A DNA stretch of 64,000 nucleotides from Sabellastarte sp. h YS-2021 (Eukaryota > Annelida > Polychaeta > Sabellida > Sabellidae), in NCBI GenBank assembly GCA_964017235.1, contig OZ024933.1, positions 56,526,255-56,590,254 on the forward strand, given 5' to 3'. Below the pieces are notes generated by a model. The model did no database searches, was not told where the DNA came from, and saw nothing but the letters and a program-made list of their open reading frames with translations. Made by a program: the position numbers and the translations under genes. Positions within the stretch are counted from its first letter, which is position 1. Each line of letters starts with the position of its first letter. Of this stretch, positions 3,615 through 58,880 are shown one piece after another.

Positions 3615-3758
3615 TCAATTTGATACAGCATACAGCTCCACTTCACACAGATTCAGATAAGTCCGACTTGGGGAATACACCACCACAGTGGTACCTCTCA
3701 CTGGGAATACTTCACATTGAACATAGTTGATATCCCCCTCTCGTATTGTTTCATTAAG
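3615..3758 (-). CDS. Exon 14: terminal exon of fucolectin-type domain 2 with stop codon
   Basis: A 144-nt terminal exon after acceptor GTTTTTTTCCAG. It runs LNETIREGDINYVQCEVFPV to YLNLCEVELYAVSN and then TGA. CEVELYA is the typical last strand of this lectin fold, so the protein ends right at the domain boundary. Two AATAAA signals on the minus strand follow at about 3541-3536 and 3530-3525. Confidence 0.93.
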   Translation of the reverse strand, partial: LNETIREGDINYVQCEVFPVRGTTVVVYSPSRTYLNLCEVELYAVSN

Positions 3759-6700
3759 CTGGAAAAAAACACACACATCATCGTATTGAAATAATGCTGT
3801 TTTATGATACATTTATGTCAAAATCATTTCATGTTTACAGATAAGATTATGAGACAACTCCATTCAAACATAAAGCTCATCACCAAAAGTTTATCATAAG
3901 AAATTTGAAATTATCACTGTATTGGTAGCTTGGTAGGTAACTGTTGATTTACTTAGCTCACACTCCTTGCGAAGAAAGTCCAATTAAATTGTAGCTAAAA
4001 TACAAGTTTTGCAGTGCAATTACCATCCTTGGATTTTTGTAACAGTTGGGTAATACATCAAAGTAGGTACAAATAGTGCAGATATATTACGTTGCTGCAA
4101 AAACAATTTGATGTTTCAGATTTTGGGTTTTAAAAGCAATTGGATGACAGAAATTGCCAAAAAAAGCATGTTATCAGAGAAGCCTCAACAGCTTTTCACT
4201 TTAATCAAGTATGTTATTAAAGCTAATTTAATACTGATGACAGTATTGCAAGGGCAATTAATAAGACTATGTGTGGTTATTGTATCAGTTTTATCAGACT
4301 GAAAAGTTGCACTTTACTTACCGAACCACAGAGTTTGAAGTTCACCATTTCAGCAGCCATACCAACAGACGGAATATTGTTCAAGGTACCAACTTTTGCA
4401 TAGGCTGATCTTGAGGCTTTGTGAAATAAACAGTATTAATTGTATAATTATTTAACAAATGAAAGTATTTTTAAATAATGTGACGTTGATTTAATATTTA
4501 AATCATAAATATTTCTTTATGGAAAGTTTTAGTACTCCTGCTCAGTAGGTTGTTGTTTGGGCTATCATTTAATTGTTTGTTTGTCGTTACTAAAAAACGA
4601 AGGAACACATCTTTATGAATTTTGTTTTGATGTTGGCAGGGCCTGACCAAAGGAAGATGTGACTGAATTTTGGGAAAGATCTATATTATACTCTGGTTAT
4701 CCACAGTTTCAAGTGAATTGACAGTTTATTAACGCTCGACAAGAGGTCATTCTGTGTGTGCACCATTTTGCCCTAATAATTCAAAAACGGTAACACCAAT
4801 TGAGCTCAAATTTGGTGGACAGATATTTTTGGGGTACAACGGATTTCTCCAAATATCGTGTCATTTGATCAAAAATAAAAGTCAGGAGAGAGTTTTCTTA
4901 TTTTCAATTGGATATATACAGTGAAATCTGCTTCTTCATACAAACATAAAAAATCATTATAAAGACCGGAAGTGCGCAGACTACAAACAACAATGCAGTG
5001 CGCATAATTTTGTGTACAATTATCTGAGAATAAACTGGACGATCGCCGATATTACAGAATAAAACGATACAGACAAAATATAGTGCGACAACTGGGTGTG
5101 TACAGAAATATATTTACAATAATATTTATGGATTAATCAATGAAACCGGTCTTTATAATAGAAATAAAGTCCTCAGTTTTGTGACTTATAATCCCTGATA
5201 ATTCACAAATTTCCTGCGAATAACAGACTCTGGGGTTATGGACCTTTCCACGGTGTCAATCAAAATACCGCAAATCGGCATATATCCTATTTGCTACAAT
5301 GGCAACAACCAATCATTTCCTCCGATTTTCATTGGAACCATTTTGAATCACCAAAACGTGGCCATTTTTAGGGACATATTTGTAAATATTATTGCTTTCT
5401 GACAATGGAACAAAAAGAAACCACAGTGTAATTTCATAAAAAAATTATATCATCAATCCTACCTACTTTAAAATGTCTGAAATGTATATATATGTCCCCA
5501 AGCTTCCATTGTTTATATTTTACTGCAATGCACAAGGATTTGTTTTGATCAATAAATTGTTTATTTATTCATTTTATAATTTTTGTCACAATAAAGCAAA
5601 TATACTTTATTATATAATTTCTAATTATATGCTACATCCAATCATTTAAAATATGTGTTATTTCTCTTATATCTAGAAATACTCAATGTTTACATTTGAT
5701 TTCCCGCCATTTTCGCCATTTGTTTATCAGACAAGGCCTGACATGGAGTGAATTAGTGAATTGACAGTTTATTAACGCTCGACAAGAGGTCATTCTGTGT
5801 GTGCACCATTTTGCCCTAATAATTCAAAAACGGTAACACCAATTGAGCTCAAATTTGGTGGCCAGATATTTTTGGGGGTACAACGAATTTCTCCAAATAT
5901 CGTGTCATTTGATCAAAAATAAAAGTCAGGAGAGAGTTTTCTTATTTTCAATTGGACATATACAGTGAAATCTGCTTCTTCATACCAACATAAAAAATCA
6001 TTATAAAGACCGGAAGTGCGCAGACTACAAAAAACAATGCAGTGCACATAATTTTGTGTACAATTATCTGAGAATAAACTGGACGATCGCCGATATTACA
6101 GAACAAAACGATACAGACAAAATATAGTGCGACAACTGGGTGTGTACAGAAATATATTTACAATAATATTTATGGATTAATCAATGAAACCGGTCTTCAT
6201 AATAGAAATAAAGTCAATAAATTGTTTATTTATTTATTTTCTAATTTTTGTCATAATGAAACAAATGTACTTTATTATATTATTTCTTATTCCATGGTAC
6301 ATCCAATCATTTATAATGCATGTTATTTCTCTTAAAATACTAAATGTTTACGTTTGATTTCCCGCCATTTTCGTCATTTGTTTGTCAGACAAAACCTGAC
6401 ATGGAGACAACTAAAATACAGAAAACCAGGAAGTGGGCGTGGCCTATGGAACGGTCCAGTCCGAGGTTTTGTGATTTATGGACCGTTCCATAGGCCACGC
6501 CCACTTCCTGGTTTACGGTATTTTAGTTGTCTCCATGTCAGGCCTTGTCTGACAAACAAATGGCGAAAATGGCGGGAAATCAAATGTAAACATTGAGTAT
6601 TTCTAGATATAAGAGAAATAACACGTATTTTAAATGATTGGATGTAGCATATAATTAGAAATTATATAATAAAGTATATTTGCTTTATTGTGACAAAAAT

Positions 6701-12700: not shown

Positions 12701-15700
12701 ACATTTGTATGATATATATTGCCTCTTCCCATTTTTTTCAAGGTGTTTAAACTGTGATGGGATAGTAGCCTTTCCCAAGTTAGATATTTACATAAAACTA
12801 AAAATCTGTTGACAAATTCAAAAGTTGTCATTAAAATGTACTGGATACTGTTTTTTTGCCTTTAAGTACCAGTACTTCTATCAAGATAAGGTATGATGTA
12901 AAGTGAAATCAATATATGAAATTTGTTTTCATTTGCATAAATCATTTATAGAAAATCGTGCTGTTGTAGTCAAATTTATTGAATTCATTCTGAAAAAAAT
13001 CCTTCTAAAAAGTTCTAACTTTTATATTATCAGTTCATGAAATAAATCAGTATATAATGGGTTTTCCTTAAGATAGTAGTTCAGTACTTTTTGACCTTAA
13101 GTTTGGATAATTGTAAGTTTTGGAAATCAGTGGTAACATTTTCTTCTCAATTTAAGCCTTTGTTGAGACCAAGAAAAAGGAAATGTGTTTGTGGGAACTG
13201 TAATCAACAGCACACACTGTAGATGGCTAGACGCATTATGTATACTATGAAAGCTTTGTTTACATGTTTTGGTGGGAAAGTTCTGAACTAATTTGGGAAA
13301 CATATATGATTATTGTTACTTGGGGCCCAGTTCTAAAGACATTTATGGTGTATTTATTTAATCTCCTTGCAAAAATTAGTTTTCAAAATTGAAAAAATAA
13401 CAATCAAAATTCATCTTAGAGTTGAACCTGGTTGACTGCATGATTTGTGATTTTTATCCAACTTGCTTAATACCTATCAAAATAATTTTTTATCTGAAAC
13501 AAATATAAAAGATGTTCTCAAGGCTATTTCAGAAATTTAATGTGATAGACTTTTGTCTTATAAACAAATCAACTTCATAAAAAGAAAATGCAATCTTTTA
13601 AATATATATGTATGTGTTAAAAGGCTCACAAAAATGATAGTTTGTTTACATTGTCATGAACCTGTGACTTCAAGGCTAGTACTTTTTCCGGGAGTTGTTG
13701 AGTGAAAAATAATGGAGACAGTTGTAAAAATCTTGCAAAAACAGGCAGAAAGTGACTGAATATTCCATGTAATCTTGTCCAGACATATCTTATTTTTACA
13801 GAAATTGAAGTTTCATATGTGTATGTAATTATTAATGAATGATCTGAAAATGCTTCCTATGACCTTTGTAATATATGTGTTTTTTATTAGGATGTTGTAT
13901 CACTGTTATATAAATATTTGTTTGTTTTTTGTGATTGTTGTATGTAAAATAATGATTCAGTCTCTTGAAAGTTTATATTACTAGTTTACTGGAAGTTGTG
14001 GTTTCAAAATTTCCAGTTCCCCACTATGTGTCAGAATAATACACAGGGGAACTGCTGTAAAAGTAAAGGGAGGTAGTCCACCCTCACCTTTACACATTTG
14101 GAATATATTTGTAAAACTGAGATATAAATGGTTTATTGTGATTTATTAAGTCAATTAATGTAATGTTAAAACATAGCCACTGCAAAGGCTAAGATATTTT
14201 CTTTGTCATTTTCACTCCTAGAAACATTTACGTGTTTCTCCAGCTGCATGCAACTTATCACTTTGACAGTTTGACTATTATGTTCAACCCTTATGTTATT
14301 GTAGATCTTTCCCTTCCCACAGGGCAGATTTTGATTGTGTATTAGTTTGTTACTGCAATGTACACAGGAGACAGTTTTCTGAGTTATTTTGAGGCAGTAA
14401 GAAGTGTTTTCAGCCATAGAGCTAGATATATGTAGAAATATATTATTTAGGCAGACCTAAATAATTTTTATCTGAACAGTTTTGAAATTCTTAAAGAAGT
14501 ATTAATTAGGCAGACCTAATTAATTACCATAAAATATATGTATCAGGATTATTGATGTAATTTCACTGTAAATAAAAGTAGAACTAGCAAATTGGAACTT
14601 TATCACTGATTACCAGGCAACTGCTCATCTGTGTTTACACAACAACCTTTAACTGTTAGTCACAGTAGTCAGGTCAGATAGGTTTCATTATTGTTTCAAT
14701 GTGTGTATGGTTAAGAGCATACCAGTTGACTGTAATCATTATTTTAGTTGTTAAATCAATTTGTTAAGTTAAAGTTTTTGTCTTTTCCGGTTGCAACTTA
14801 AAAGCAACCGATAATTGCTTCCGTGCTTGCCCATGACCGTAACAGTTGTCAAAGTTAAAATAATGTATGCTGAATTGTTGTAGCTTGAGTGACGCCATGG
14901 GCTGGTCCATTAGCTTACTAAATATCTTTACAGTTCTACCAGTACTTTATTATAACACTGACAGTAACAACCATTTAAACTTCTGTAATAATTTACAAGT
15001 ATATTAGAACTCACCAGAAGGAGATCCCATCTGTAAAATCTTCGCCCCACAGAGTTCCACCGGATTATGGAATTCTATAGCCCACCAAGGCTGTTGAGAA
15101 AAAATGTGCATCAAATAGAAACATATAAGCCACACATAGATCATCACATGTAATATTTTTATCTTTGTCTTGTTTATGTCAAACATTATTGCATGGTGAT
15201 GTGTTGACTTCAAAGTGATGGAACTTAATAGCCCTGTTTACTTTTTCCAATTTCTCATAAATACCTGATGTCCATGAATGGGAGAGATAAGATTGCGACC
15301 CTGACAAAATGACTTCATTGGTCATAAAGCTGTTGCACAAATAGGCACTGTAGCAATGCATGATTTAATCAGAGAGGATATAGTGTGTGTGTGTTGCCAA
15401 ATAAGGTCATCGAGTTATTGATTTTTTGAAGTCTACAGAAATAGACAAGTTAGTGCCCACCTTTGTTACACTATGCTAGAGGGATCTATTTATAGATTTG
15501 GGGAAACTCCCAGGTTCCTAGAACATTCTCAGTAGTTCTTGTATCAGTATGTATCATAAGGTGATTTCAATAACCTTCTCGACATCTCCCAAGCATATAT
15601 AAGTGCTATAAGCCAGACCACATATATTATGGTTAATTGTCTCTCAAAGGTGCTATGCCACAGTAGCCTATGGACTGCTACATTTTACTTTTCAACTTCA

Positions 15701-51700: not shown

Positions 51701-54700
51701 TAGCTATAAAATCAGTAAATACACTTAATACTTAAATTTCCAATAGTAATAGGTTTCAGTCTCATATCGAAGATGGTTCTGATAAATTAAAAATACGCAT
51801 GCTCTTAGAATTTGATCATTTGTATTCCATGTTCTTAACATTTATTGGATAATTCTTAATTATGTACTGAAAAGAGCAGCAATTGCATCCCCTTTTCAAA
51901 TTTATAGAATCCTCACAAATGTTTCATACTTATAAAAATTATTAAAGAATGTATAAGAATTATACCGCATTTATTTAATATCTTTAAACAACCTCTTTTT
52001 TACTGATAAGACAAACATTTATGAAACATAGAAATACTATTATGGTACCAGTTATACCTCGCATAACATAGATTTTGTGAAAATTATTACTTGTACAGGT
52101 TTTCTATACTTTAGCAGTACAAGCTATCACCTGTACCATTTGTCATACATTTGTATATGTTTATGCCAATGTGTCTTTTTTGAGCCAATGTCTCTTATTA
52201 AGGCGTATTCGAATGGGGTGAATATTGGTGATCTGAAAGGAAATTCACCAACAAAGTGATCCTGCAACATTGCATTATCACTTTGTAAGTGATCAGAATT
52301 ATTGCAGTCACTTCAAATGACAACTGTTTACTACATCCAAATACAGCCAAGGTGATATCTTCTGATTTTAAATATCACACAAAATAGTTATTTTTATTTT
52401 GTACAACATTTCTCTAGAAAGCACTGGTGTGTAATAATAAATGGTCACAAAAACCTTTTCCATCCTGTGACACTCTAAGTAGGTCAGTTCATTTTCGTTT
52501 GAACGACCTTTAATACACCTGAATAAGTCTAGTAATAATAAACAGTACCAAAAGAAGCCAATAAGAGCTGTGTGTGCCTTCTATCTTCTTATATATAAGT
52601 AGTCATATCATTTCTGTAGAATCTAATAAAGTGTAATAAAAAACATCGTGTTAAATCAAAGGTGGGAAGTTTTTCATTGTTGCTATTTTTAATTAGTTTT
52701 GTCCCTCTTTCAGTAGTTTCAATACCATTTGGAAATACCGGAATGAAAATTTACAACATAAAATTACTTACCAGTCCCTGTGATTTGACACATATATTGG
52801 TCTGGTTCCTTATAACTCCTGGGTTAGAATTTTCTTTGATTGGAAATAGAATCTACAAGTAAATATAACACTGTAAGTACATACTAGAAGATATCAGCTA
52901 TACCTTGAATGTTCTTTTTGCACATAATTACCACCCCCAAAGAAATTTTATTTTTGGGTCCAGCCCCTTGTTTGTCCATCTGTCTGTTTTCCAGTGTTCT
53001 TGATTACTGTAAAAACTAATGAATACATCAATATAAAATAATTTTATAGGGTCAATATCATGATGTGTTCAACATTACTCAAAAAGTAATAAACAGATCT
53101 TTATACAATAAATATTTCATGTACAGTAGGTATGGTCTGACTAAAAGAAGAAGTAATTCAGTTTTGATTTTAAACTTTCAATATACATATACTCTAAATT
53201 TATTCTCTATTCAATTTAAGTTTATTTTACCTTAACCTCAACTTTGTTAAAATCTTAACTTTAGGTGACCTTTGGTTCATCTTTTAAATTGATAAACTTA
53301 ATTTAAGGAGGCCTTAATTTCTCGTGTAATTAGTTATTAACTGTTTTTTGATTGTGCATACAAACTACTCTATTAGTGTAAATAAAATATATATATATAT
53401 CTTCCCGTTTGGGTTTACTTCACTCCTCACTCATAACTGAGGCAATCACAGTATTTGGGTGAACTTACAATATTCTCAGCTGACTTGGGGGAGGTAATCT
53501 CTGAAGGGGTGCTCTATAGATTGTATATTGATTTGCTAAAAGTTACAGTCCAAATATTATGACTAAACTTAGAGCTACTCTGACAAATCGTCTTACACTC
53601 TTCTGTGAAAATGGAGGTGAGTAACCTTGTCCCATGAAAAGATGGGTCATGCAAGGCGGTCAAGTATTATTCTCTGATTCTCAAGAATGACCAGGGCTTG
53701 ATGCTATGAGTTAAGAACCCTGTGAGTTGGGTGTCTTATGTCAAGTAGAGGATGGTTAGTATTTTTGTAGTGTTTGTTTTCTTCTTGGTTTTCCTGGGTT
53801 GTCTACTTGACAATTGGTTGAATTCAAATAAAATGTACAAGATGTAATTTTCAACAAATAATTCTTTATTTCAACAAAGTTATTTTTCAAAAAAAGTTAC
53901 AAAGTCTTTTGATGGTGCCTCAGTTATAATCCTGCTCTGTTCACTACTCTGGTCAAAAGTCTCTCTGATGAAAAATCCTGCTCTCTCTAGCTAAACTGGC
54001 CCTTTTTATAACAAACTGTGGAATGTAAGCCCTGAGTCAGAAACATTTCTCTCTCTGGAATGTTACAGGAACAAATGGTCACATGTTCATATAATTCAGT
54101 AAGATGTCCAAATACGGAAGTCACATGATCAAGGATTTTAGTAATTTAGTAAATTCTTATATACATTTTGGTCATGTGACCAAAACATTGCCTAAAAAGG
54201 ATCCGTAAGGGGTCATGTGACCTGTCTTCATAAGAAATGCAGGTAACCATGTGACCAAGAAATAAGAACTGGTGGTGGTCATGTGACCTATTATCTAAGA
54301 GTTTTGCAGATAACAGTACCTAATATGGAGGGTCATGTGACCAGCAGGGAATTATGGGAAAGACTGGTTCTTAAGCTTAAGAATGCCATGTGACCACATA
54401 TTTTGCCAAACTCATTTCTAAATATGGGAAGATGTTCCTGTGTCTGGATTCCTAAGCTATGAAGCAATGCTTCTCATTCCTTGTACTTGTATAACCTTCT
54501 AACTTATATAAAAATGATCAGAGTTCTATTTAGCATTGTAACAAAATGGAAACTTTAATTACTGGAACATAAGAATAAGTAATTACAATGCACCATATAA
54601 AACACTAATTGTTATAACATATGAACCCTTGATTAATAACTACATTTGTATTCAACTGTTTATATAGAACAACTTGTCATAATATTTCTGTATTAAATAT

Positions 54701-57700
54701 TGATCCTGGATTTTAGATGTACTGGCTTATTTCTTTAATTTCATTTACAAATTAATTATTCTTATTGCTTATGTTAATAGAAGTGATTTAGTTAACATCA
54801 ATCTATGACAAGTCTTATAAACACAGCATATTTAGGATGGCATGATATTTAACAACAATGAGTGTGTGCTGTGAATGACAGCAAGCAAATGAACTTCATG
54901 CTAACACTAACACACACTAAGCACAAACAGAAGAGAGATGTTTGTATAAATGGTAATGCATGCATCTTACATAAACATATAAACTATTTTGACATCTACT
55001 GTATATCATAAGTATACTTATGATGTTTGAAAGTATTTCAGATCTATGTTTTACTGATTAATTTTACTAAGATTAATTAAACAATTAATAGTAATTCAAA
55101 TGATTCTTCTTCTCCCTAATACTTAACACGTATGTTTTTTACTTGGAACAAATCAAATGGCGTTTCAGTTTTCCCTGCTGTTTTTAAACACATGTTTCCA
55201 TTGGTCATTTTTATGTTTATCCGACTGCAAAATCTACCCTATGCAGGTAGTCACTGTATATATACAATAATTTTTTCAGCAGATGCAAAATTTTCACAAC
55301 TGATCTTGTAGGGACAAAAGCTGACTTTTGACAATCATTTGTGCCCTGCAGTTTTGTCGCAAAAACCCATTATTTTCTGGTCACCTTTGAAGGAATTTGC
55401 CTATTCTTCAAAATTAGATGCAGATTAGCATTGCATGGGTGCAAGACAGGATGCAATGGGATGTGGCAAGTCCCTTTACATTGGTAAGCAATCTGTAGAA
55501 GTTGTGGACTGTAGAGGTGATTCAGCCACTTTGTAAACCAAGTTGCAAAAATTTCAAACACGTTTAAATTATTGATATGGAACAGCCCATGGATATTAAA
55601 CAGCCCATATAACCACTGTCACCCGTCACCCCCCCTCCCCCACAAAAATCTTGGCAATTGTCCTCATATGGATGACCATGTGGCATGTCAGGCCTATAAA
55701 TCAGCAATAATAGAACATAGGTATAAGCAAAATCGATCATAGCAGCCCCCAAAACTATAAAATGTGTGCGGAACTCTTCTTTTCCACCTTCTGAAGAGCC
55801 AGAGTTTGTCTTATTACAGATTGTGAGTATTTCCCACATTATGGCTTAGGTGAAAACCTATTAAAATAATTTAACTGTGCCTTCTGATTGAAAATCAGTT
55901 GCAAACATGACCTCATATATTGATGTACACAAGAAAGAATGAACAAAACAAATACCTTCTGTAAAATGTTAAAGGAATAATACTGACAAATCATGGCATA
56001 CCCACAATATTATTCTAGGTTGAGGTTATAAACCTTATTAACCATACAAGGCGAAGCCTTAGCAGTTTAATGCTTCTAACAATGGTAAAATACCCTATAT
56101 GCCATGGTTTGGAGGGTGTTATTCCTATTTTAGCATGACAATATATTTTATCATTATTAATAATTACAAATTTTACAACGGAACAAGGCATTATAGCCAA
56201 TAAGTATACAGGATATTTTACCATAGCTCTGGGTCAATCAGGTTTACCGACCCAGCCATTTCATGTTAGAATTTAAAATTAATTGGAATGTCCATGTAAG
56301 GAATACCATATTAGTTTGTACTTAAATATCAGCCAAAGAAGAAAAAAAAGAAAGTACTTACTTCAGAACAAGGTTGGCAGTAACCGCTATTATCCTCATA
56401 CATAAAGGATAAGGTCTTAACGGGTAGTAGGTAAGATGGAAGTAATGAGCTTGCATGCACCCGTACATTGTTCTGACTCGACACCTGTACAGAGACAGAT
56501 ACGGGTTGCTCAGAACCATCTGTACACTTGATCCCAGGGATATACATATCCAATCGTTGCACATAGAATCCAGTCTCCAGATCAAAGTCTTCTGGCACCC
56601 AATTATAGGTCTTCAGCCATTCTGTATCTTGATAAGGAGGTCGAAAGTAGACATACTCCCCACTGAGCAGTTTGTCAATATCAATGAAAGTCTTGCTTTC
56701 CTTGCATTGAGATGGTTTACTAGGTATGTATGCATAGTGGATAACTGTGGAAGAGGACAATAAGGGTTCATATGAAATCAGGAGCTGCAAGGCTCCATCG
56801 GTGAAAAACTTTGTTTTGCACAATGATGGTCGTGCACCTGCTGCTGCGTATTCATGTCCATTACAAATTATTCTGGCTGCATTCTGTATCTTAATCTCAT
56901 CCATTAAAAGGGCAATGACCATTGGTCTAACGTCAAGCTGTGTTGTTGAAGTAATTGCATTGCTGTGGGCAATGGCTATATCTGATCTCACGATCGCTGT
57001 GAAAGCATCGACCAGTTCAAACTGGAAGGTAAACATGTCTTCGTAAAAGGACTCTAATTGAGCTAGATGCATTCCCATCTCACCACAGTTCCCAAAAGCA
57101 TTGTCAAGCACTGTGCCGCCAATATTTCCTGAGACACCTCCTGCACCTGCGATGAGGTCACAGCCAGCTGTTGCTGTGTACTCTAAAGCTGCAGCTAACC
57201 TGGCCAAATCCTGGTCAGTGACCGCAGGTGTGTAAGCCCCATATTTTTGAATAAAGTTAGTTGCCATTGTTTTCTTTTCTTGATCTGAAGCATTAACAAA
57301 TGTGTTAATTAAATTTCTTATATCCCCCAGTTGGGCCTCATTTTTGGCAAATTTTGTTTGCATACTTTCTGCTTCTGCTTTCAGCTTTGACAGTCCAGCG
57401 AGTAATCTGCCTGCGTTTGCTAGATTCTGGATTGCAGTCATCAATTGCCTCATTCGGTCAATTATTTCAGTAAGATCACAGTTCCCAGCTGCTATTGATA
57501 ATGGGTTAAAGCAACCCATAACTGAAAATGCCACAGCTGCAACAAAAATATACTTTTCGGATAACTAATTCTCTAAATTTACAATAACAATTGACAATAC
57601 AAACACCTACAAACATGGTTTAAAAACAATTCTTACCCACTGGCTTTACTTAATGTGCTTCTCATCTTATAAATGGGTAAAGTATAAATGTGACAGTTGT

Positions 57701-58880
57701 CACAATATGTGACATTTGCCACAAGGGACAACCTTTAAAAGAAACAGAAGAAAGTTTGTTGCAATTTTGCATTAGGGGAAATTAGTAGTTTTCCTTACTG
57801 CCAGGACAAATAGTTGATCTGAAAGCTGCAGAAGAAAAATTTAACATTATCAGTGACCTTGAATGGCAAGATAGTCTCGGCTGGAAGTCCAAATTAAGAA
57901 CGTACACTAAATATAAGTTACATGTGGAATGTGAAAATTATTTGACTCTCAATATCAATAAATATGAACGATCAATGCTTGCTTAAATTAAGATCTGGAA
58001 CCCTGCCATTATATATTGAAAAGGGCAGATATGAAGTAAAAAAAATGGAAAGTAGGACTTGTCCCATTTGTAAGACTAATGAGGTTGAAGATGAAATACA
58101 TTTTGTTATTAACTGCAATGGTTATACTACAAAAAGAACTTATTTTTCTCTTATATTTGTAACAATGTGTCTAATATTTTTATGAATTTGGATGCTGAAG
58201 AAAAATTTATTCAACTGATGAATCTGGAAAATGCTAGCTTAAAAAGATTTGTAAAATTTTGGGTTGATATTTGGGAACAAAGAAAATATACTTCTTACCG
58301 AATAAACAAAATATATATGTATTTGTTTCCAATTCTGTAGTTTCTGTATTAATTAGTGACGTATTAATTAGAGAATCATATTATAATACTGTTCATTACA
58401 CATATGTGTATATTATAACTCTTAAAGAATGAAACTGACTTGTAAGCCTATCCAGGCTGGGTGTCTGTTTATGTCTCGTTAAAAAGTTACAATGTAAAAA
58501 AGACACACTGTCAGTATAATAAAAAAATTATCTCTCTATCCTTACTGGCAAATATGGCATACTATAGAACATTTGATATTTGTAAATTGACAAAAATGCA
58601 CAAGGAGAAATAAAATGACACAAAGTTCAGTTTTATTGGATTAAGTGATGGTTAACCTGAAGGATAGTTTTTAGGCATATTTCAATAGAGATTCTAAAAG
58701 AGAACAAATATTATTATATAACTTTACCTGCAGTTTTTTCTGCCACCTCAGCCGACAAAATAACCACAGCACCCTTCAGGATGGTATCAAAACTGATTGA
58801 GATTGTGTCCTCCCAAAGTCTTTTACTGCCCTTTTTAAGCTCCTCCAGTTTACCAGTAACATAAGCCATGTCAGCTACTC
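3615..58880 (-). CDS. Mosaic secreted protein gene: helical module + EGF + two fucolectin-type domains (14 exons, 5' end missing)
   Basis: I assembled this gene from 14 minus-strand exons: 58728-58880, 56362-57536, 52772-52852, 46209-46359, 40258-40371, 33899-34092, 25189-25264, 24222-24332, 23036-23170, 22477-22565, 16726-16830, 15015-15090, 4322-4416 and 3615-3758. All introns are GT/AG. The phases join without conflict (1,0,0,1,1,0,1,1,1,0,0,1,0 at successive exon ends), giving 2699 nt and 899 residues to a TGA stop. Approximate order: residues 1-443 helix-rich and Ala/Leu-rich with a hydrophobic stretch near 37-70; 444-520 a Cys-bearing linker; 521-558 EGF; 560-730 fucolectin-type domain 1; 731-899 fucolectin-type domain 2. 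Six N-x-S/T sequons and many paired cysteines fit an extracellular protein. Fucolectin-type domains typically bind fucosylated glycans, so recognition of glycans or microbes is a plausible role, but that is inference. No start codon or signal peptide was found, so upstream exons are missing. Confidence 0.88.
4322..4416 (-). CDS. Exon 13: fucolectin-type domain 2, fourth segment
   Basis: A 95-nt exon, phase 1 in and phase 0 out, acceptor TTTCACAAAG, donor TCG|GTAAGT. It encodes SRSAYAKVGTLNNIPSVGMA and AEMVNFKLCGS. It fills the position of exon 8 in domain 1 with weaker similarity; the Cys (KLCGS) is in the equivalent place. It is separated from exon 12 by about 10.6 kb of transposons. Confidence 0.8.
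4714..7060. mobile_element. Nested fold-back / MITE-like repeat complex
   Basis: A block of about 457 bp (start GAATTGACAGTTTATTAACG) occurs twice in direct orientation, at 4714-5171 and 5755-6211. Each copy is followed by part of a second sequence. The full version, 5221-5750, is an inverted copy of 6525-7045. A shorter version at 6216-6455 pairs with 6476-6722. The centre is a near-perfect hairpin: ACCAGGAAGTGGGCGTGGCC at about 6425 returns as its complement by about 6517. No transposase is visible. It looks like a fold-back element that received a duplication or insertion of its neighbour. It lies in the intron between exons 12 and 13. Confidence 0.75.
6424..6518. repeat. Perfect-looking hairpin at the core of the fold-back element
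   Basis: About 34 bp on each side are complementary (GGCGTGGCCTATGGAACGGT against its reverse complement) around a loop of about 20 bp. Outside this, complementarity continues with mismatches through the CTGACATGGAGACAACTAAAATAC region and beyond. Confidence 0.85.
7562..8358 (+). pseudogene. PIF/Harbinger DDE transposase remnant, left arm
   Basis: A basic, Pro-rich N-terminus (SPRRRRKPQNPWVMPSILQR) is followed after a deletion by LVDAGYKFLWVNVGASGSSS and DAQIFNHSKL, the second-Asp block of Harbinger transposases. Then come LLGDDAFDLMPWL and RGRRVVENSSGIWVRRCRVL, which holds the catalytic Glu in the family's N/R-RVVE pattern, and LTCVVLHNMM. Frames shift between blocks, at about 7861 and 7995. 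The region carrying the helix-turn-helix and first Asp is missing, and a poly-G tract interrupts the C-terminus. An intron acceptor-like TTTCAAG precedes the first block. Confidence 0.82.
8271..8286 (+). repeat. Poly-G tract
   Basis: A run of about 16 G within the transposase remnant. Such runs are prone to slippage in the genome and in sequencing, so the length is uncertain. Confidence 0.9.
8699..9521 (-). pseudogene. Harbinger accessory Myb/SANT-like protein remnant
   Basis: Minus-strand frames at 9204-9521, 8910-9149 and 8699-9001 can be read as one protein with frameshifts. The first has YGKLTQTKSGQAAEKSTKRQ and then TWLKDSFSFLQGHIRRKGVS, a motif I associate with the second ORF of bivalve and other animal Harbinger elements. 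The middle part holds PADPVLDHFQQMRSMISSFL, a likely dimerisation segment, and the end is a Glu/Lys-rich helix (FRNETVKLLSEIQYKTEERK). In Harbinger elements this partner helps target the transposase to DNA. No intact frame remains. Confidence 0.65.
10212..11105 (-). pseudogene. PIF/Harbinger DDE transposase remnant, right arm (inverted copy)
   Basis: Minus-strand pieces repeat the left arm: PTPRRRGQPQKPWVIPLIVQ at 10824-11105, YNYKGF then VGTDYRFLRGDVVLSGSSTD and AQILNHSRLKKKV at 10601-10830, and MTYVLLHNMLRTHQG near 10380. An intron acceptor-like TTTTGTTCTGATTTGCAG lies upstream at about 11100. Order and spacing match the plus-strand arm. It is therefore an inverted, independently decayed copy, with several frameshifts and stops. 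Confidence 0.8.
11700..12270 (+). repeat. LTR-like repeat, copy 1 (5' part)
   Basis: It shares long stretches with 15405-16000: GAGTTATTGATTTTT, GATCTATTTATAGA, a TATATAAG box before a CTGACCACA or CCAGACCACA start-like sequence, and repeats of GGATCACAG / GGACAGATTGCTGGA. TATA box, downstream initiator and position suggest a retrotransposon LTR. The 3' end is cut by the TTAA-flanked element at 12275. No internal coding region for it is seen. Confidence 0.45.
12275..13865. mobile_element. TTAA-flanked TIR element, copy A (non-autonomous)
   Basis: It starts AGGTCATAGGAAGCATTTTT directly after TTAA (12271-12274) and ends with the complement AAAATGCTTCCTATGACCT at 13865; the right flank is TTGT, a decayed TTAA. 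Copy B at 35148-38270 has the same ends. TTAA duplication is typical of piggyBac and Kolobok transposons. The AGG start fits Kolobok better than piggyBac's CCC, but this is inference. No transposase ORF is visible. Confidence 0.65.
14640..14840 (+). repeat. LTR-like repeat, 3' fragment
   Basis: It matches 15985-16150: CAGGTCAGATAGGTTTCATT, TTGACTGTAATCATTATTTTAG, and the TTTTGTCTTTTCCGGTTGCAAC end. It may be the displaced end of copy 1, separated by the copy A insertion and further sequence. Confidence 0.4.
15015..15090 (-). CDS. Exon 12: core strand of fucolectin-type domain 2
   Basis: A 76-nt exon, phase 0 in and phase 1 out, identical in length and phases to exon 7 of domain 1. It encodes PWWAIEFHNPVELCGAKILQ and MGSPS. 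The PWW...F motif is kept, but the Asn-Arg-x-Asp found in exon 7 is replaced by Gln-Met-Gly-Ser, so a key sugar-binding pair appears lost. Confidence 0.92.
15405..16150 (+). repeat. LTR-like repeat, copy 2 (most complete)
   Basis: This is the longest copy. It has GCATATATAAGTGCTATAAG as TATA region, GGATCACAGAATACAGACAT repeats in the transcribed part, and a T-rich end (TTTTTTTTTCCTGTTACAAC). No second LTR and no gag/pol lie next to it, so it may be a solo LTR. A short open frame at 15830-16024 lies inside and is not a gene. Confidence 0.42.
16160..16700. other. Intron DNA, nothing recognised
   Basis: AT-rich sequence just downstream of exon 11 on the minus strand. The 76-aa plus-strand frame at 16573-16803 is a shadow of exon 11 and its flank. 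Confidence 0.4.
16726..16830 (-). CDS. Exon 11: fucolectin-type domain 2, second segment
   Basis: A 105-nt phase 0-0 exon with acceptor ATTCTAACAG and donor AAA|GTAAGT. It encodes SSDNDERYGLASEATDGRYT and then TDNWRQCTHTALEDK. The pattern S-S...A-S-x-A-x-D-G...CTHT is diagnostic of the fucolectin family. The His is retained. Confidence 0.92.
17436..17487 (+). repeat. Poly-T / poly-G tract
   Basis: Long T runs followed by about 19 G in the intron upstream of exon 11. Length is unreliable in assemblies. The rest of 16.85-18.35 kb shows no gene. Confidence 0.9.
18353..18852 (-). pseudogene. Unrecognised coding-like fragment with a C-terminus
   Basis: Two overlapping minus-strand frames read as one protein if a single frameshift is placed near 18705. 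The upstream part (18852-18705) has GKDICDILTTLSIHSGLYII, KDVSSEGLYDVVVNKIEIYV. The downstream part runs stop-free for about 115 codons, with GEYGGDAYLSTHGSLLQPIS, an acidic Pro-rich stretch (PENLTLDSS), VDLEDLDLELASN and a TGA at 18353-18355. Base composition is richer in G/C than the surroundings. I do not recognise the family. It could be a retrocopy of a host gene or part of a transposon protein. It sits in the intron between exons 10 and 11, on the same strand as the host gene, but has no matching splice phases there. Confidence 0.45.
18860..18995 (+). repeat. Possible LINE 3' tail
   Basis: The segment with GATTAAGCGCTATAAAAGTA followed by short TTAGAAT-type repeats resembles the 3' ends of CR1-like LINEs in invertebrates. 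No coding part is attached, so this is a weak call. Confidence 0.25.
19125..19700. mobile_element. TIR element with ACTTATTTTGTA subrepeats, copy 1
   Basis: Both ends are arrays of ACTTATTTTGTA and its variants, in opposite orientation (about 19131-19270 and 19460-19695). The outer end reads GGGCCTGTAACAACTT (right end, minus strand). A middle segment of about 190 bp is shared with 48388-48552. Frames across it (19237-19446) are similar in two copies only because the DNA is. No protein family is recognised. Confidence 0.75.
20588..20735 (-). mobile_element. tRNA-derived SINE fragment
   Basis: On the minus strand it reads TCCTCAGTGGCCTACTGGTTAG (A-box-like), then AATCTAATCACAGGCTATC, and ends with GGAACGTAAACCCTAAATTTGACC. 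The same order is seen in the fuller copy at 60675-60835. The B box is damaged. Confidence 0.6.
21185..21775 (-). pseudogene. LINE (CR1/Jockey-like) reverse transcriptase C-terminal remnant
   Basis: On the minus strand, frames with shifts give YLQIKLDECLSMNSHIANKC, then LVQDFFISHLDYANATLAGL, then TKLILNKNKFDSS, then YRVEFKVLMLFYKCLKHEAP and LYPSNLIKKA. The I-S-x-L-D-Y-x-N-x-x-x-x-G-L-P and L-H-W-L-P-type order is characteristic of the region after the RT domain in CR1/Jockey LINEs. Stops and frameshifts make it inactive. Confidence 0.65.
21880..22200 (-). repeat. Dispersed repeat in two tandem copies
   Basis: ATGATCTGGATCTTTCCCAA...TAATCACTTCCTTCTTTGGC is repeated with changes about 200 bp later. 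An inverted relative (GGCCTGACCAAAGGAAGATG...GGGAAAGATCTA) lies at about 4638-4685. Confidence 0.5.
22409..22427 (+). repeat. GT microsatellite
   Basis: A short T run followed by about eight GT units, close to the donor side of exon 10. Confidence 0.85.
22477..22565 (-). CDS. Exon 10: linker and start of fucolectin-type domain 2
   Basis: An 89-nt exon, phase 1 in and phase 0 out, after acceptor TATTTTGTAG. It encodes FSTPPPSWKVCDWETNIARN plus SGLIKTIKQ. Cys-x-x-x-TNIA is the same domain start seen in exon 6, with a Pro-rich linker before it. Confidence 0.85.
23036..23170 (-). CDS. Exon 9: end of fucolectin-type domain 1 plus Ser/Thr linker
   Basis: A 135-nt phase 1-1 exon with acceptor TATACTACAG and donor CCAG|GTAATG. 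It begins EVMNLTCEKPIPASKGRFLT and runs to FLHFCNFEAF. This gives the last two cysteines of domain 1 and aligns with exon 14 (VQCEV...LNLCEVELYA). The last residues, TTRSTSP, start a short linker that continues in exon 10 (FSTPPPSW). Confidence 0.88.
24222..24332 (-). CDS. Exon 8: fucolectin-type domain 1, third segment
   Basis: A 111-nt exon, phase 1 in and out. It reads AASRIANATVVISDRRPDLP and then NRIETYCATVKSNPGN, matching the family segment R-x-x-NATVxV...YCA. It contains an NAT sequon. The donor AATG|GTTGGT is unusual but is the only one that gives an in-frame join to exon 9. A hairpin repeat lies just upstream in the intron at 24360-24590. Confidence 0.82.
24360..24590. repeat. Hairpin MITE-like repeat
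   Basis: AACCACCATAAAAAACACCC at the left is complementary to GGTGGTGTTTTTATGGTGTT at the right, with about 150 bp between. It begins about 30 bp before the exon 8 acceptor. Confidence 0.6.
25189..25264 (-). CDS. Exon 7: core strand of fucolectin-type domain 1
   Basis: A 76-nt exon, phase 0 in and phase 1 out, acceptor ATTTTTAG, donor GCAG|GTATGT. It encodes PFWYVELPLTHKVCAVRITN and then RADSA. This corresponds to the family pattern PWW-x-VDLG...ITNRxD, including the Arg-x-Asp of the fucose-binding motif. The acceptor of exon 8 restores the Asp that follows. Confidence 0.88.
25725..25830. repeat. Three copies of CATTTCATGAAATG palindrome
   Basis: The 14-bp palindrome occurs at about 25725, 25781 and 25816. 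The first two are mirror-arranged with GGTCAAA/TTTGACC beside them. No gene is near; the rest of 25.3-27.7 kb is AT-rich with nothing recognised. Confidence 0.8.
27905..28005. repeat. Candidate DIRS internal complementary region
   Basis: GTTAGGAAATGGTGAG and CTTACCATTTCCTAAC face each other and match the terminal motif TTTCCTAACAGT of the inverted ends. In DIRS elements such a region templates completion of the termini. Confidence 0.5.
29500..30407 (-). pseudogene. DIRS-like RNase H region remnant
   Basis: Minus-strand frames 30081-30407, 29832-30044 and 29524-29775 give SEGCLQMFP, then a YKHYRSKSSVSSFKSFENQF LNQNLLIF-type segment and EDVCTNLENHARRF. With frameshifts this matches the DIRS RNase H order N-x-x-E-L-K-A-V...F-S-D-N...N-R-Q-G-G. 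Many stops are present. Confidence 0.5.
30540..30860 (-). pseudogene. DIRS-like reverse transcriptase remnant
   Basis: The minus strand reads DLTDAYFLKPMQPRFRKCLF followed by a stop and YQFTALPFFLVERKGKTAMP. This is the DLTDAYFH...P-R-x-R-K-x-L-x-F...YQF-x-A-L-P-F-G-L block of DIRS and related RTs. The catalytic YxDD segment is not preserved here. Confidence 0.7.
31130..32452 (-). pseudogene. Probable DIRS-like ORF1 (gag-like) remnant
   Basis: Minus-strand pieces include an open segment at 32310-32441 (FIDKDGLLMDVDINNLIVYN and on to a donor-like CAG|GTAAAT), KLSMSLFFTLSG near 31700 and a Ser/Gly/Arg-rich end near 31070-31140. Two related stretches ending ACTTTCTATGGA at about 32140 and 31870 suggest an internal duplication. 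The assignment rests mainly on position in the DIRS element. Confidence 0.35.
32775..33890. other. Intron DNA, nothing recognised
   Basis: The 104-aa minus-strand frame at 32937-33251 has no motif and no splice sites that fit the host gene. Confidence 0.4.
33899..34092 (-). CDS. Exon 6: start of fucolectin-type domain 1
   Basis: A 194-nt exon, phase 1 in and phase 0 out, after acceptor TTTTCCTTCAG. It carries the hallmark fucolectin start CDMTTNIALNRPSQESS and the CSHT motif whose His contributes to fucose binding in eel-type lectins. Its length equals the sum of exons 10 and 11 (89 + 105 nt), which encode the same part of domain 2. Confidence 0.92.
34535..34960 (+). repeat. Degenerate AAGGTCA repeat array (about three units)
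   Basis: Units carry TTTC(T/C)GAGATA, CAAGGTCA and TATCAACTTTCTACA in the same order as the larger array at 39085-40075. Confidence 0.65.
35148..38270. mobile_element. TTAA-flanked TIR element, copy B
   Basis: It starts ATGTCATAAGAAGCATTTT after TTAA (35144-35147) and ends AAAAATGCTTCCTATGACCT before TTAA (38271-38274), so the target duplication is intact. Its left subterminal sequence TGTGAAACTTCAATTTTTAT matches the right end of copy A in reverse, so the two copies are inverted relative to each other. It is about twice as long as copy A. Inside is AT-rich with no recognised ORF. Confidence 0.72.
39085..40075 (+). repeat. Tandem array of AAGGTCA-rich units (about 145 bp, about seven units)
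   Basis: Each unit contains TTTCTGAGATATAGCCTGG, AAGATTTTAAAGGTCAAGGT, CACTACAGCAAGGTC, AATCAAGGTCACACCATGAT and a T/A-rich ATCAACTTCCTACAC link. By eye there are about 18 AGGTCA hexamers. Units differ by many substitutions, so the array is old. It ends about 180 bp before the EGF exon. Confidence 0.8.
40258..40371 (-). CDS. Exon 5: single EGF-like domain
   Basis: One symmetrical phase 1-1 exon of 114 nt encodes a complete EGF module. Its six cysteines are spaced C-x4-C-x5-C-x8-C-x-C-x8-C, reading DECWPPPCQYGGTC followed by IDGLMNFTCDC and a final C in GEVC. The spacing is canonical for EGF (pairing 1-3, 2-4, 5-6). The 1-1 phase is the usual arrangement for shuffled EGF exons in animals. The D-E-C start resembles calcium-binding EGFs, but the conserved Asn/Asp and Tyr positions are not complete, so calcium binding is uncertain. 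The NFT sequon lies inside the domain. Confidence 0.92.
40900..41001 (-). mobile_element. Possible tRNA-type SINE fragment
   Basis: On the minus strand CTGGCCTAGTGGTTCACTAC resembles an A box and CTGGGTTTGAATCCCT a B box, about 45 bp apart. Confidence 0.4.
41090..41310 (-). pseudogene. DIRS-like RNase H remnant
   Basis: The minus strand gives LELDACLVSLGGRCDNKVHH, then LEMVNILVAIRDFGV and KCDNQEVVHVLNNGRT with a stop. LEMVN-x-x-V-A-x-R and CDN-x-x-V-V-x-V-L-N-x-G-R-T are typical of this retrotransposon group. Confidence 0.65.
41464..42423 (-). pseudogene. DIRS-like reverse transcriptase remnant
   Basis: Pieces in order are LNYLGCRIPVNSQFNLQAWR, YWDVQLIELQNFGFPLDYK, a decayed middle, YVDMCLPFGARHADFSAYQ, and MGYSVINYIDDFVGVHMPSV with the catalytic YIDD. 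A later piece is LGLDISQKKLCPSSTKAVYL. At least three frameshifts and several stops separate the pieces. Confidence 0.82.
42555..42675. repeat. Palindromic hairpin inserted in DIRS-like remnant
   Basis: AAGTGTCCAATATTGGAAAA at about 42568 is complementary to TTTTCCAATATTGGACACTT at about 42640. GGTTAATGGCC/GGCTATTAACC extends the arms, and the loop holds a small hairpin GGTCCCGAAGGGACC. Confidence 0.8.
42836..44710 (-). pseudogene. DIRS-like ORF1 (gag-like) remnant
   Basis: The longest frame is 296 aa at 42836-43726. It includes HRHVCAYCILQGRILTHPEK DC, a Cys/His knuckle of the C-x-x-C...H-x-E-x-x-C type that ends this gag-like family. Upstream, with frameshifts, are LEFVKSIIEEQGRDCRDKML, KVAWPHEHILGGLNRQHITY DHLSL (the RWPNEG...ITYDDLSL block) near 44.0 kb, and a W-C-T-T-C-x-K-K-H-F-P-P-T-G start near 44.6 kb. 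The same protein family is seen intact over its first part at 48829-49623. Confidence 0.68.
45380..45450 (+). repeat. C-rich and G-rich homopolymer tracts
   Basis: Runs of C near 45382-45402 and of G near 45441-45449. The surrounding 44.9-46.2 kb is AT-rich intron with no gene recognised. Confidence 0.8.
46209..46359 (-). CDS. Exon 4: Cys-bearing linker before the EGF domain
   Basis: A 151-nt exon, phase 0 in and phase 1 out, with acceptor AATCTCCAG and donor GCAG|GTAGCA. It begins VSQCQSVRYASLFTTWKIRL and contains a second Cys (SGSCP). Together with YCQPC at the end of exon 2 this may form a small disulphide-bonded segment. A tRNA-type SINE lies in the upstream intron, about 50-170 bp from the acceptor. 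Confidence 0.8.
46410..46528 (-). mobile_element. tRNA-derived SINE fragment
   Basis: The minus strand reads CAGAGGTCCTTGGTGATGTAGTGGTTAG as an A-box region, then TAATCACATGCTGTCACCTC, the same middle as the copy at 60675-60835. Confidence 0.6.
46560..48130. other. Intron DNA, no gene recognised
   Basis: A 73-aa plus-strand frame at 47169-47390 is protein-like (MRALDQMKKSSILFAVSSLG) but matches nothing I know and has no splice context. It may be a LINE remnant. Confidence 0.35.
48136..48552. mobile_element. ACTTATTTTGTA TIR element, partial copy 2
   Basis: It begins GGCCCTGTAACAACTTATTTTG and matches the reverse complement of copy 1 from its right end through the middle; the other end is missing. 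Confidence 0.72.
48829..49623 (+). CDS. Gag-like ORF1 of a DIRS-like retrotransposon (5' part, intact frame)
   Basis: A 264-aa frame with an ATG start. It opens with a Lys/Ser-rich basic region (STSKKKKPASDKHKNKKSSA), then an acidic helix with a coiled-coil look (LEVGSEAILNTLKHLEESNH). The C-terminal part, VDRLRSIPEVSNVVANLLAD YETRVQQE, SARRKSGRYNITDT and RPEGRWPNKGF, is the diagnostic block of this family; related sequence lies near 44.0 kb on the other strand. It stops shortly after RWPNKGF, whereas the family continues into ITYDDLSL and a Cys/His knuckle, so it is truncated. No RT follows within 2 kb. Codon use and G/C content differ from the flanks, suggesting a younger insertion than the other DIRS pieces. 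Confidence 0.6.
   Translation: MGKMPSTRKNPISTSKKKKPASDKHKNKKSSAKRTGRSKEVSGADDRSYLHDASQVTSKDDDLLDVHLLEVGSEAILNTLKHLEESNHQLTARIDRIEGNSTVSSMPRPPGAVTGRENVTFRLPKPKSSSPVKTTMGELTPRTNLINSYKFPAREEVVNPGGYSTETGTLQAVCSGSRVTEQRQGYRREAITPTVDRLRSIPEVSNVVANLLADYETRVQQEVIPRKPLSARRKSGRYNITDTPNARPEGRWPNKGFKKPQTYI
50130..50440 (+). repeat. AAGGTCA repeat array (about two units)
   Basis: The same unit as at 39085-40075. Two perfect AGGTCAAAGGTCA direct repeats with 1-bp spacing are present, one at about 50155-50167 and one at 50297-50309. Confidence 0.75.
51165..51452. mobile_element. ACTTATTTTGTA TIR element, partial copy 3
   Basis: It matches copy 1 from about 19425 to its right end, finishing TTGTTACAGGCCC. 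It is inverted relative to copy 2. Confidence 0.72.
52772..52852 (-). CDS. Exon 3: small 27-codon linker exon
   Basis: An 81-nt exon, phase 0 at both ends, between acceptor TTTACTTGTAG and a consensus donor CTG|GTAAGT. It reads ILFPIKENSNPGVIRNQTNI followed by CVKSQGL, with one cysteine and an N-Q-T glycosylation site. Exons 2 and 4 would also join in frame without it, so it could be alternatively spliced. Its strong sites and open frame argue that it is real. Confidence 0.65.
52930..53780. other. Intron DNA with dispersed repeat, no gene recognised
   Basis: The start, TTTTTGGGTCCAGCCCCTTG TTTGTCCATCTGTCTG, looks like a common dispersed repeat. A short TA microsatellite lies at 53386-53400. 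Nothing coding is visible. Confidence 0.4.
53820..54400 (-). promoter_or_regulatory. Promoter- or LTR-like block with TCATGTGAC motif cluster
   Basis: Reading the minus strand from 54400: eight E-box-type motifs at about 54386, 54331, 54277, 54246, 54211, 54170, 54119 and 54077. Four of them are exact GGTCATGTGACC on the + strand (54170, 54211, 54277, 54331). Then comes TTATAAAAAGG at 54010-54001 and AATAAA at 53870-53865. The order enhancer, TATA, poly(A) signal resembles an LTR. No coding region follows before exon 3, so a solo LTR or a decayed promoter is most likely. Confidence 0.45.
54420..56340. other. Intron DNA, no gene recognised
   Basis: Short frames at 55370-55561, 55564-55839 and 56015-56224 show no motifs or bias. 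A C-run lies near 55629-55640. Confidence 0.45.
56362..57536 (-). CDS. Exon 2: large exon coding the helix-rich N-terminal module
   Basis: This 1175-nt exon is by far the largest and has no stop over 391 codons. It opens after a T-rich acceptor (TTTTTGTTGCAG) and closes at GAA|GTAAGT in phase 0. Its first 140 or so residues look strongly helical: heptad-like Leu/Ala/Lys runs such as MTAIQNLANAGRLLAGLSKL, then a Gly-rich turn (AGAGGVSGNIGG) and another helical stretch with FQFELVDAFTAIV. The last third has more beta-type and aromatic sequence and ends in a Cys-x-x-Cys pair (YCQPC). I recognise no named domain. Surrounding introns are AT-rich, and this exon stands out by composition and length. 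Reading on past the donor gives a meaningless poly-F tail, which supports the splice site. Confidence 0.9.
57800..58420 (+). pseudogene. 3' end of a non-LTR retrotransposon ORF2
   Basis: Three plus-strand frames join with frameshifts: LEWQDSLGWKSKLRTYTKYK, then LKLRSGTLPLYIEKGRYEVK and CPICKTNEVEDEIHFVINCN, then LMNLENASLKRFVKFWVDIW. The L-R-x-G-x-L-P-L-x-I-E-x-G-R-Y...C-x-x-C...E-D-E-x-H-F-x-x-x-C block is the typical zinc-knuckle tail of LINE ORF2 in aquatic invertebrates. An AT-rich 3' end follows. It is antisense to, and just upstream of, exon 2 of the host gene. Confidence 0.72.
58728..58880 (-). CDS. Exon 1 of visible mosaic gene (internal exon, helical region)
   Basis: The acceptor follows TTTAAACAG and the donor is GCAG|GTAAAG. 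The exon is 153 nt, entering and leaving in phase 1. It encodes 50 whole codons beginning VADMAYVTGKLEELKKGSKR: an amphipathic, lysine-rich helix that runs into a hydrophobic stretch around ILKGAVVILSAEVAEKTA. It joins exon 2 in frame. It enters in phase 1, so at least one more exon lies upstream. I searched 58.9-64 kb for minus-strand donors with an open phase-1 frame and found none convincing. Confidence 0.8.

Follow-up and report, generated by a model that had tools for sequence, protein, structure and literature searches.

A candidate mosaic gene of Sabellastarte sp. that would join a helical module, an EGF domain and two F-type lectin domains

Mosaic lectins are common in animals. Among F-type lectins, a section of PMC5712786 gives the fucose-binding motif as HX24RXDX4(R/K) and describes mosaic forms in which the lectin is combined with other domains. 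In a second group of marine animal proteins, the cephalotoxins, domain names are given in part of PMC9501996, and 'SE-cephalotoxin-like' genes are reported in sections of PMC4986456 (nemerteans) and PMC6315956 (stingray). Here we describe a candidate gene from the annelid Sabellastarte sp. h YS-2021 that appears to place a helical module and an EGF domain in front of a tandem pair of F-type lectin domains. It occupies the minus strand of C7:56526255-56590254 (contig OZ024933.1), a stretch of 64,000 nucleotides that we call the window.

The genome searched comprises 1.786 Gb in 647 contigs; C6, C7, C8, C11, C19 and C20 denote contigs of this same genome, with the window on C7. Each exon of the window gene was sought separately across the rest of the genome. 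The E-values given below for matches within the genome are of two kinds, coming either from this genome-wide search or from local comparison with selected paralogue stretches.

Exons of the candidate gene and their relatives

The exons E1 to F2e listed in Table 1 very probably belong to one minus-strand gene. The original prediction had assembled fourteen minus-strand exons, and 13 of these were located in the window at the positions it gave. Related exons elsewhere in the genome were found for 11 of them (E1-E4, EGF, F1a, F1b and F2b-F2e), while splice sites, phase and motif are the basis for F1c and F2a; the exon proposed for the end of lectin 1 was not located. For the strong exons a chance origin can be dismissed, as judged by F1a (E 8.3e-15) and F2e (E 1.6e-12), both matching C20, and by E2, which matches a neighbouring copy (E 4.1e-87). 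F2b and F2d are the weakest of the 11 (genome-wide E 0.02 and 0.03 for F2b; local E 1.6e-4 for F2d). Phases were compatible, compared by eye, at all 11 junctions of adjacent listed exons, the F1c-F2a junction being excluded; these fits are not all independent, in that F1c was sought in the required phase and the exon chain also demanded fitting phases. Exons were retained if they had homologues, with F1c and F2a in addition. The automatic exon chain was rejected, as it contained too many exons, some of them transposon-like or noise and interspersed among the real exons.

The lectin end of the gene has its relatives on C20. As judged from sequence, exons F1a to F2e encode tandem F-type (fucolectin) domains, which are found separately from the module on that contig. 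Searched genome-wide at E up to 1, F1a, F2b and F2e matched nothing beyond the window and two loci on C20, and their order is identical in the window and in the two tandem C20 genes, X and Y. Within the C20 DNA compared, F1b and F2d were also matched in gene X and F2c in gene Y. When F1a and F2e of the window are compared with C20, third codon positions differ most in three of the four comparisons. Neither module nor EGF was matched in the DNA examined upstream of the C20 genes (11.5 kb for gene X, 10 kb for gene Y), the genome-wide module search returned nothing at C20:44.8-44.9 Mb, and a start exon shared by the two C20 genes was not found.

Assignment of these exons to a known fold came from a three-row profile of F2e, which gave PDB entries 1k12 (E 0.0018) and 3cqo (E 0.0033) as the top two of three matches listed. 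The F1a profile retrieved no F-type lectin from PDB and two chance-level matches only, and F1a, F2b, F2c and F2e, tried singly against Pfam, found no family. A genome search with the model PF22633 produced 95 matches, and the window lectin exons were not among them, which suggests that split lectin exons escape this model. A relaxed tblastn search with open reading frames of the lectin region gave noise only. In lectin 1, a His is followed after 26 residues by Arg-Ala-Asp across the F1a-F1b junction (counted by eye), and the final basic residue of the fucose motif is not at its expected distance (by eye). The cation motif h2DGx reads ATDGR in lectin 2 and AANDL in lectin 1, again by eye. Glycan recognition, which the original prediction had proposed for the protein, is plausible for lectin 1, with its His...Arg-x-Asp core, and doubtful for lectin 2, in which the Arg and Asp are gone.

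The module end has its relatives in paralogues of the same genome. In the neighbouring copy on C7, the module is followed by E3, E4 and an EGF-like exon, ordered as in the window; in the C11 copy near 39.167 Mb, E3 and E4 likewise precede an EGF-like exon, and E4 and the EGF-like exon are present in the C6 and C19 copies. Because this exon order recurs in paralogues, we regard the EGF exon as part of the module gene. A six-cysteine EGF in this exon was seen at one of the five places compared, the window, and in none of the four paralogues. Two of the four paralogues examined, the neighbour and the C11 copy, have a TGA stop in the EGF-like exon immediately behind the fourth cysteine and a Gln; in the C6 and C19 copies the frame continues beyond that cysteine and reaches a possible donor or a stop. 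The window exon has no stop at the place of the paralogue TGA and is open through to its donor. It leaves one base, as F1a needs, and F1a has the same starting phase in the C20 genes. No lectin exons were found downstream of the EGF-like exon within ~8 kb (C7), 9 kb (C11), 1 kb (C6) or 4 kb (C19). A genome search with the EGF exon itself (150 of 926 candidates scored) was uninformative because EGF domains are abundant.

The mosaic architecture of the original prediction is supported in two parts, module to EGF by exon order in the paralogues and the lectin pair by the two C20 genes. The link between the parts, by which EGF and lectin exons would be joined in one transcript unit, draws its support from the fitting phase and from the open, complete EGF exon.

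Table 1. Exons assigned to the window gene (positions within the window; E-values local or genome-wide as marked)
Exon	Position	Strand	Description
E1	58728..58880	-	50 amino acids, module helix and hydrophobic stretch; phase 2 in, 1 base left; open, AG/GT; 45% identity over 49 amino acids to neighbour copy, E 5.8e-7 (local)
E2	56362..57536	-	Main module exon, 391 whole codons, open; best non-self genome match E 4.1e-87
E3	52772..52852	-	Module exon, 27 amino acids; neighbour E 1.3e-7, C11 copy E 0.003 (local)
E4	46209..46359	-	Module exon, 50 amino acids; neighbour E 4.4e-13, C11 copy E 2.8e-5 (local)
EGF	40258..40371	-	Six cysteines; Pfam PF00008 22.6 bits (cut-off 21.5); neighbour EGF-like exon E 1.2e-5 (local)
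F1a	33899..34092	-	First exon of lectin 1, CSHT histidine; C20 loci 65%/57% identity, E 8.3e-15/1.6e-10 (genome-wide)
F1b	25189..25264	-	Second lectin 1 exon, Arg-Ala-Asp core; C20 gene X 66% identity, E 2.7e-12 (local)
F1c	24244..24332	-	Probable third lectin 1 exon; splice sites and phase, weak donor; F2d-like by eye
F2a	22477..22565	-	Probable exon, lectin 1 end and lectin 2 start; splice sites, phase and motif only
F2b	16726..16830	-	Lectin 2 exon; C20 E 0.02/0.03 (genome-wide, weak), 3e-9/1e-8 (local)
F2c	15015..15090	-	Lectin 2 exon (PWWAIEF...); C20 gene Y 59% identity, E 5e-14 (local)
F2d	4322..4416	-	Lectin 2 exon; C20 gene X 40% identity, E 1.6e-4 (local); donor GTAAGT
F2e	3615..3758	-	Last exon, with stop, lectin 2 end; C20 62%/60% identity, E 1.6e-12/3.9e-11 (genome-wide)

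The introns of the window gene hold other coding-like sequence. The F2c-F2d intron contains a transposase fragment at 7990-8358 (plus strand; Pfam DDE_Tnp_4, E 4.4e-10), which we take to be of PIF/Harbinger type. Two intronic minus-strand segments, 41467-41883 and 29527-29841, have the look of retroelement reverse transcriptase or RNase H by eye (YIDDFVG, LADALSR), with no Pfam match at 0.01, and the E3-E4 intron carries a Lys/Ser/Arg-rich open frame of 266 codons at 48823-49623 (plus strand), also with no Pfam match at 0.01. An open frame of 297 codons at 42836-43729 (minus strand) belongs to no clear family, its sub-threshold match to a knottin model (Pfam, 18.0 bits; cut-off 26.8) being probably due to chance.

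EGF repeats were also seen in other settings in this genome. C18:19882927-19945810 is a very long tandem array of EGF-bearing frames with a period of ~961 bases and dozens of equal-score matches, and a similar array with a period of ~899 lies at C21:27.54-27.57 Mb. A single open frame of 1844 codons at C1:79914711-79918430 contains many EGF repeats at a spacing of 117 bases or multiples of it.

The helical module and the possible role of the protein

The largest minus-strand frame of the module region, 57564-56329 (411 codons), contains E2. For this frame neither a meaningful Pfam match nor any PDB match was obtained, and no significant match in either database connects the module with known pore-forming families. 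Profiles of the two module halves were compared with PDB: one gave 13 matches at E 1 or below, headed by a designed coiled coil at 0.038, the other none, and none was significant. Single paralogues gave scattered matches, the best at 0.004, with none for the window copy. Relatives of the first half were sought in prokaryote and viral collections and none was confirmed. The statement that the module is unrecognised is borne out as far as Pfam and PDB reach, and the module turns out to be a multigene family. The accompanying description of it as helix-rich fits the first half; in a low-confidence model the first half appears helical and the second beta-rich.

A genome search with E2 returned 30 matches including itself, which correspond to ~16 loci when adjoining half-matches are merged by eye as one gene: 8 on C19, 3 on C11, 2 on C7 and 1 each on C6, C8 and C20. 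Some matches on C19, C11 and C20 contain stops, which may merely reflect a match overrunning its exon. Seven module genes, some of them with stops in their matches, are clustered within 0.4 Mb at C19:64.93-65.31 Mb. The two module halves are separate exons in the other copies and lie together in one exon in the window and in the neighbour at C7:56626605. These two copies are also sisters in the trees of both halves (99/99 and 99/98), with a long-branch warning. An RIIa domain (E 4.9e-11; 6984-7406 of the stretch examined there) lies downstream of this neighbouring gene and shares its strand, but probably belongs to a separate gene.

The N-terminal end of the gene extends further than had been supposed. 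In the neighbour copy the exon continues upstream for ~120 residues in a single frame; in the window gene the same upstream part is split into pieces, and E1 joins E2 in phase. A further N-terminal exon, with splice sites read, was found at C7:56590930-56590730 (E 7.1e-12), 476-676 bases beyond the right edge of the window, so the earlier model was without its N-terminus and the gene is not complete inside the window. Further upstream, at C7 ~56592615 (minus strand), an open frame of ~90 codons looks coding by eye and could be a further 5' exon. Secretion, another feature of the original prediction, found no confirmation in a model that is missing its N-terminal end and has no assigned signal peptide; the window protein is probably secreted.

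The explanation that we somewhat favor overall is that the gene encodes a modular protein acting as a glycan-targeted effector. An N-terminal coiled region, the module (a helical half with hydrophobic stretches and possibly a beta-rich half), the EGF domain and two F-type lectins would be combined in one secreted protein; lectin 1 would dock on fucosylated glycans or surfaces, and the helical part would be the effector, most likely at membranes. A membrane-acting role for the helical part is put forward tentatively. The most hydrophobic 15-residue stretches are found in E1, with a score of 1.69, and where E2 begins, with 1.55. More speculative still is the view that the module family is an undescribed animal effector family with a membrane-inserting helical part, one member of which gained a tandem lectin pair and became a lectin-guided membrane attacker in innate immunity.

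Several observations weigh against this explanation or against the single gene that it assumes. No convincing candidate for the fourteenth exon, the end of lectin 1, was obtained by searching between F1c and F2a. EGF and F1a are ~6 kb apart, and the interval contains two exons that resemble signal peptides and have a fitting donor, against an expectation of 1.1 from the window rate of 0.18 per kb, which leaves room for a separate lectin gene. First-position differences exceed third-position differences in F1a both between the window and gene Y (27 versus 25) and between the two C20 genes (16 versus 15). At the N-terminal end neither a start codon nor a signal peptide could be assigned, and nine loose candidates from 10 kb of upstream DNA could not be linked with it. 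An AlphaFold2 model of E2 alone, from a single sequence, had a mean pLDDT (predicted local distance difference test score) of 38.5 and was useless for fold comparison. First-half pieces of the paralogues have hydrophobic peaks of 0.95-1.87 at differing places and so give no evidence that a membrane hairpin is conserved. Finally, lectin 2 keeps the His, with Met and Ser replacing the Arg and Asp (by eye).

A different role for the same single gene is less probable and is nevertheless the best of the alternatives. The product could be a structural or matrix protein of shell, mucus or extracellular matrix, its EGF and lectins serving to bind partners and no attack taking place. Coiled helices with an EGF domain would suit such a role, and a 'cephalotoxin-like protein' appears among the coral skeletal matrix proteins in a list in PMC4043741; however, no test ties cephalotoxin-like names to the window gene, and the C19 cluster of similar copies and the lectin tail would suit defence or recognition at least equally.

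Origin of the mosaic and the EGF-lectin junction

Taken together, the module-EGF order in the paralogues and the separate lectin pair on C20 give the window gene the look of a module gene to which a C20-type pair has been joined. We consider it probable that the lectins were gained in this way, and joining may have occurred by exon shuffling or fusion at the phase-compatible intron after EGF. Loss is an unlikely alternative to gain: a lectin tail ancestral in the module family would have disappeared from the other copies. The C6 and C19 copies, in which the frame runs beyond the fourth cysteine to a possible donor, allow that such tails may exist elsewhere, but the confinement of F1a, F2b and F2e matches to the window and two C20 loci speaks against loss, as do C20 lectins that lack a module match.

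The least probable account assumes two genes on the same strand, a module-EGF gene ending soon after EGF and, next to it, a secreted tandem F-type lectin gene of its own, resembling the C20 pair. It can point to the C20 genes with neither module nor EGF in the upstream DNA compared and no module there genome-wide, to a frame that would stop after 17 codons if read on past the EGF donor, and to a signal-peptide-like open reading frame with fitting donor at ~35.07 kb, but such frames occur at chance level, the EGF donor is in the phase that F1a requires, and the 34-40 kb stretch shows no likeness to the C20 upstream stretches beyond one match at E 0.013, a comparison that is weak, the C20 genes' own start exon not having been found either.

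With gain of the lectin pair as the preferred origin, the two probable sources of the mosaic are identifiable in one genome, the module family (~16 loci) and the C20 lectin pair, and the gain-of-domain event thereby becomes testable with ordinary complementary DNA and comparative data. The window gene also gives entry to a module family that lies outside Pfam and PDB coverage.

Comparison with known systems

Module-bearing proteins in marine animals may be annotated as cephalotoxin-like. Compared by description, the window gene shares EGF with the cephalotoxin domain criterion of EGF plus Sushi, TSP1 and LDL-A. None of the last three was seen among the recognised window exons, where no scan with those Pfam models was made, and a motif scan downstream of four paralogues found no Sushi, TSP1 or LDL-A. 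The window gene differs from cephalotoxins by its two F-type lectin domains, and among the literature matches listed none had 'cephalotoxin' alongside fucolectin or F-type lectin.

The other module genes (~15, the closest at C7:56626605) resemble the window gene in having module, E3, E4 and an EGF-like exon ordered alike in the two copies followed that far. They differ from it in that none of the four examined has a six-cysteine EGF in that exon.

For the lectin pair, the best PDB matches of the F2e profile are eel fucolectin AAA (1k12) and striped bass FBP32 (3cqo), the latter a tandem F-type pair as in the window gene. Against the motif in the section of PMC5712786 cited above, lectin 1 has a spacing of 26 where the formula has 24, and its third basic residue is out of place; lectin 2 has Met and Ser for the Arg and Asp of the F-type fucose core. 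Unlike 1k12 and 3cqo, the window lectins would be joined to a helical module and an EGF domain, and it is this combination of known domain kinds with an uncharacterised module family that is new.
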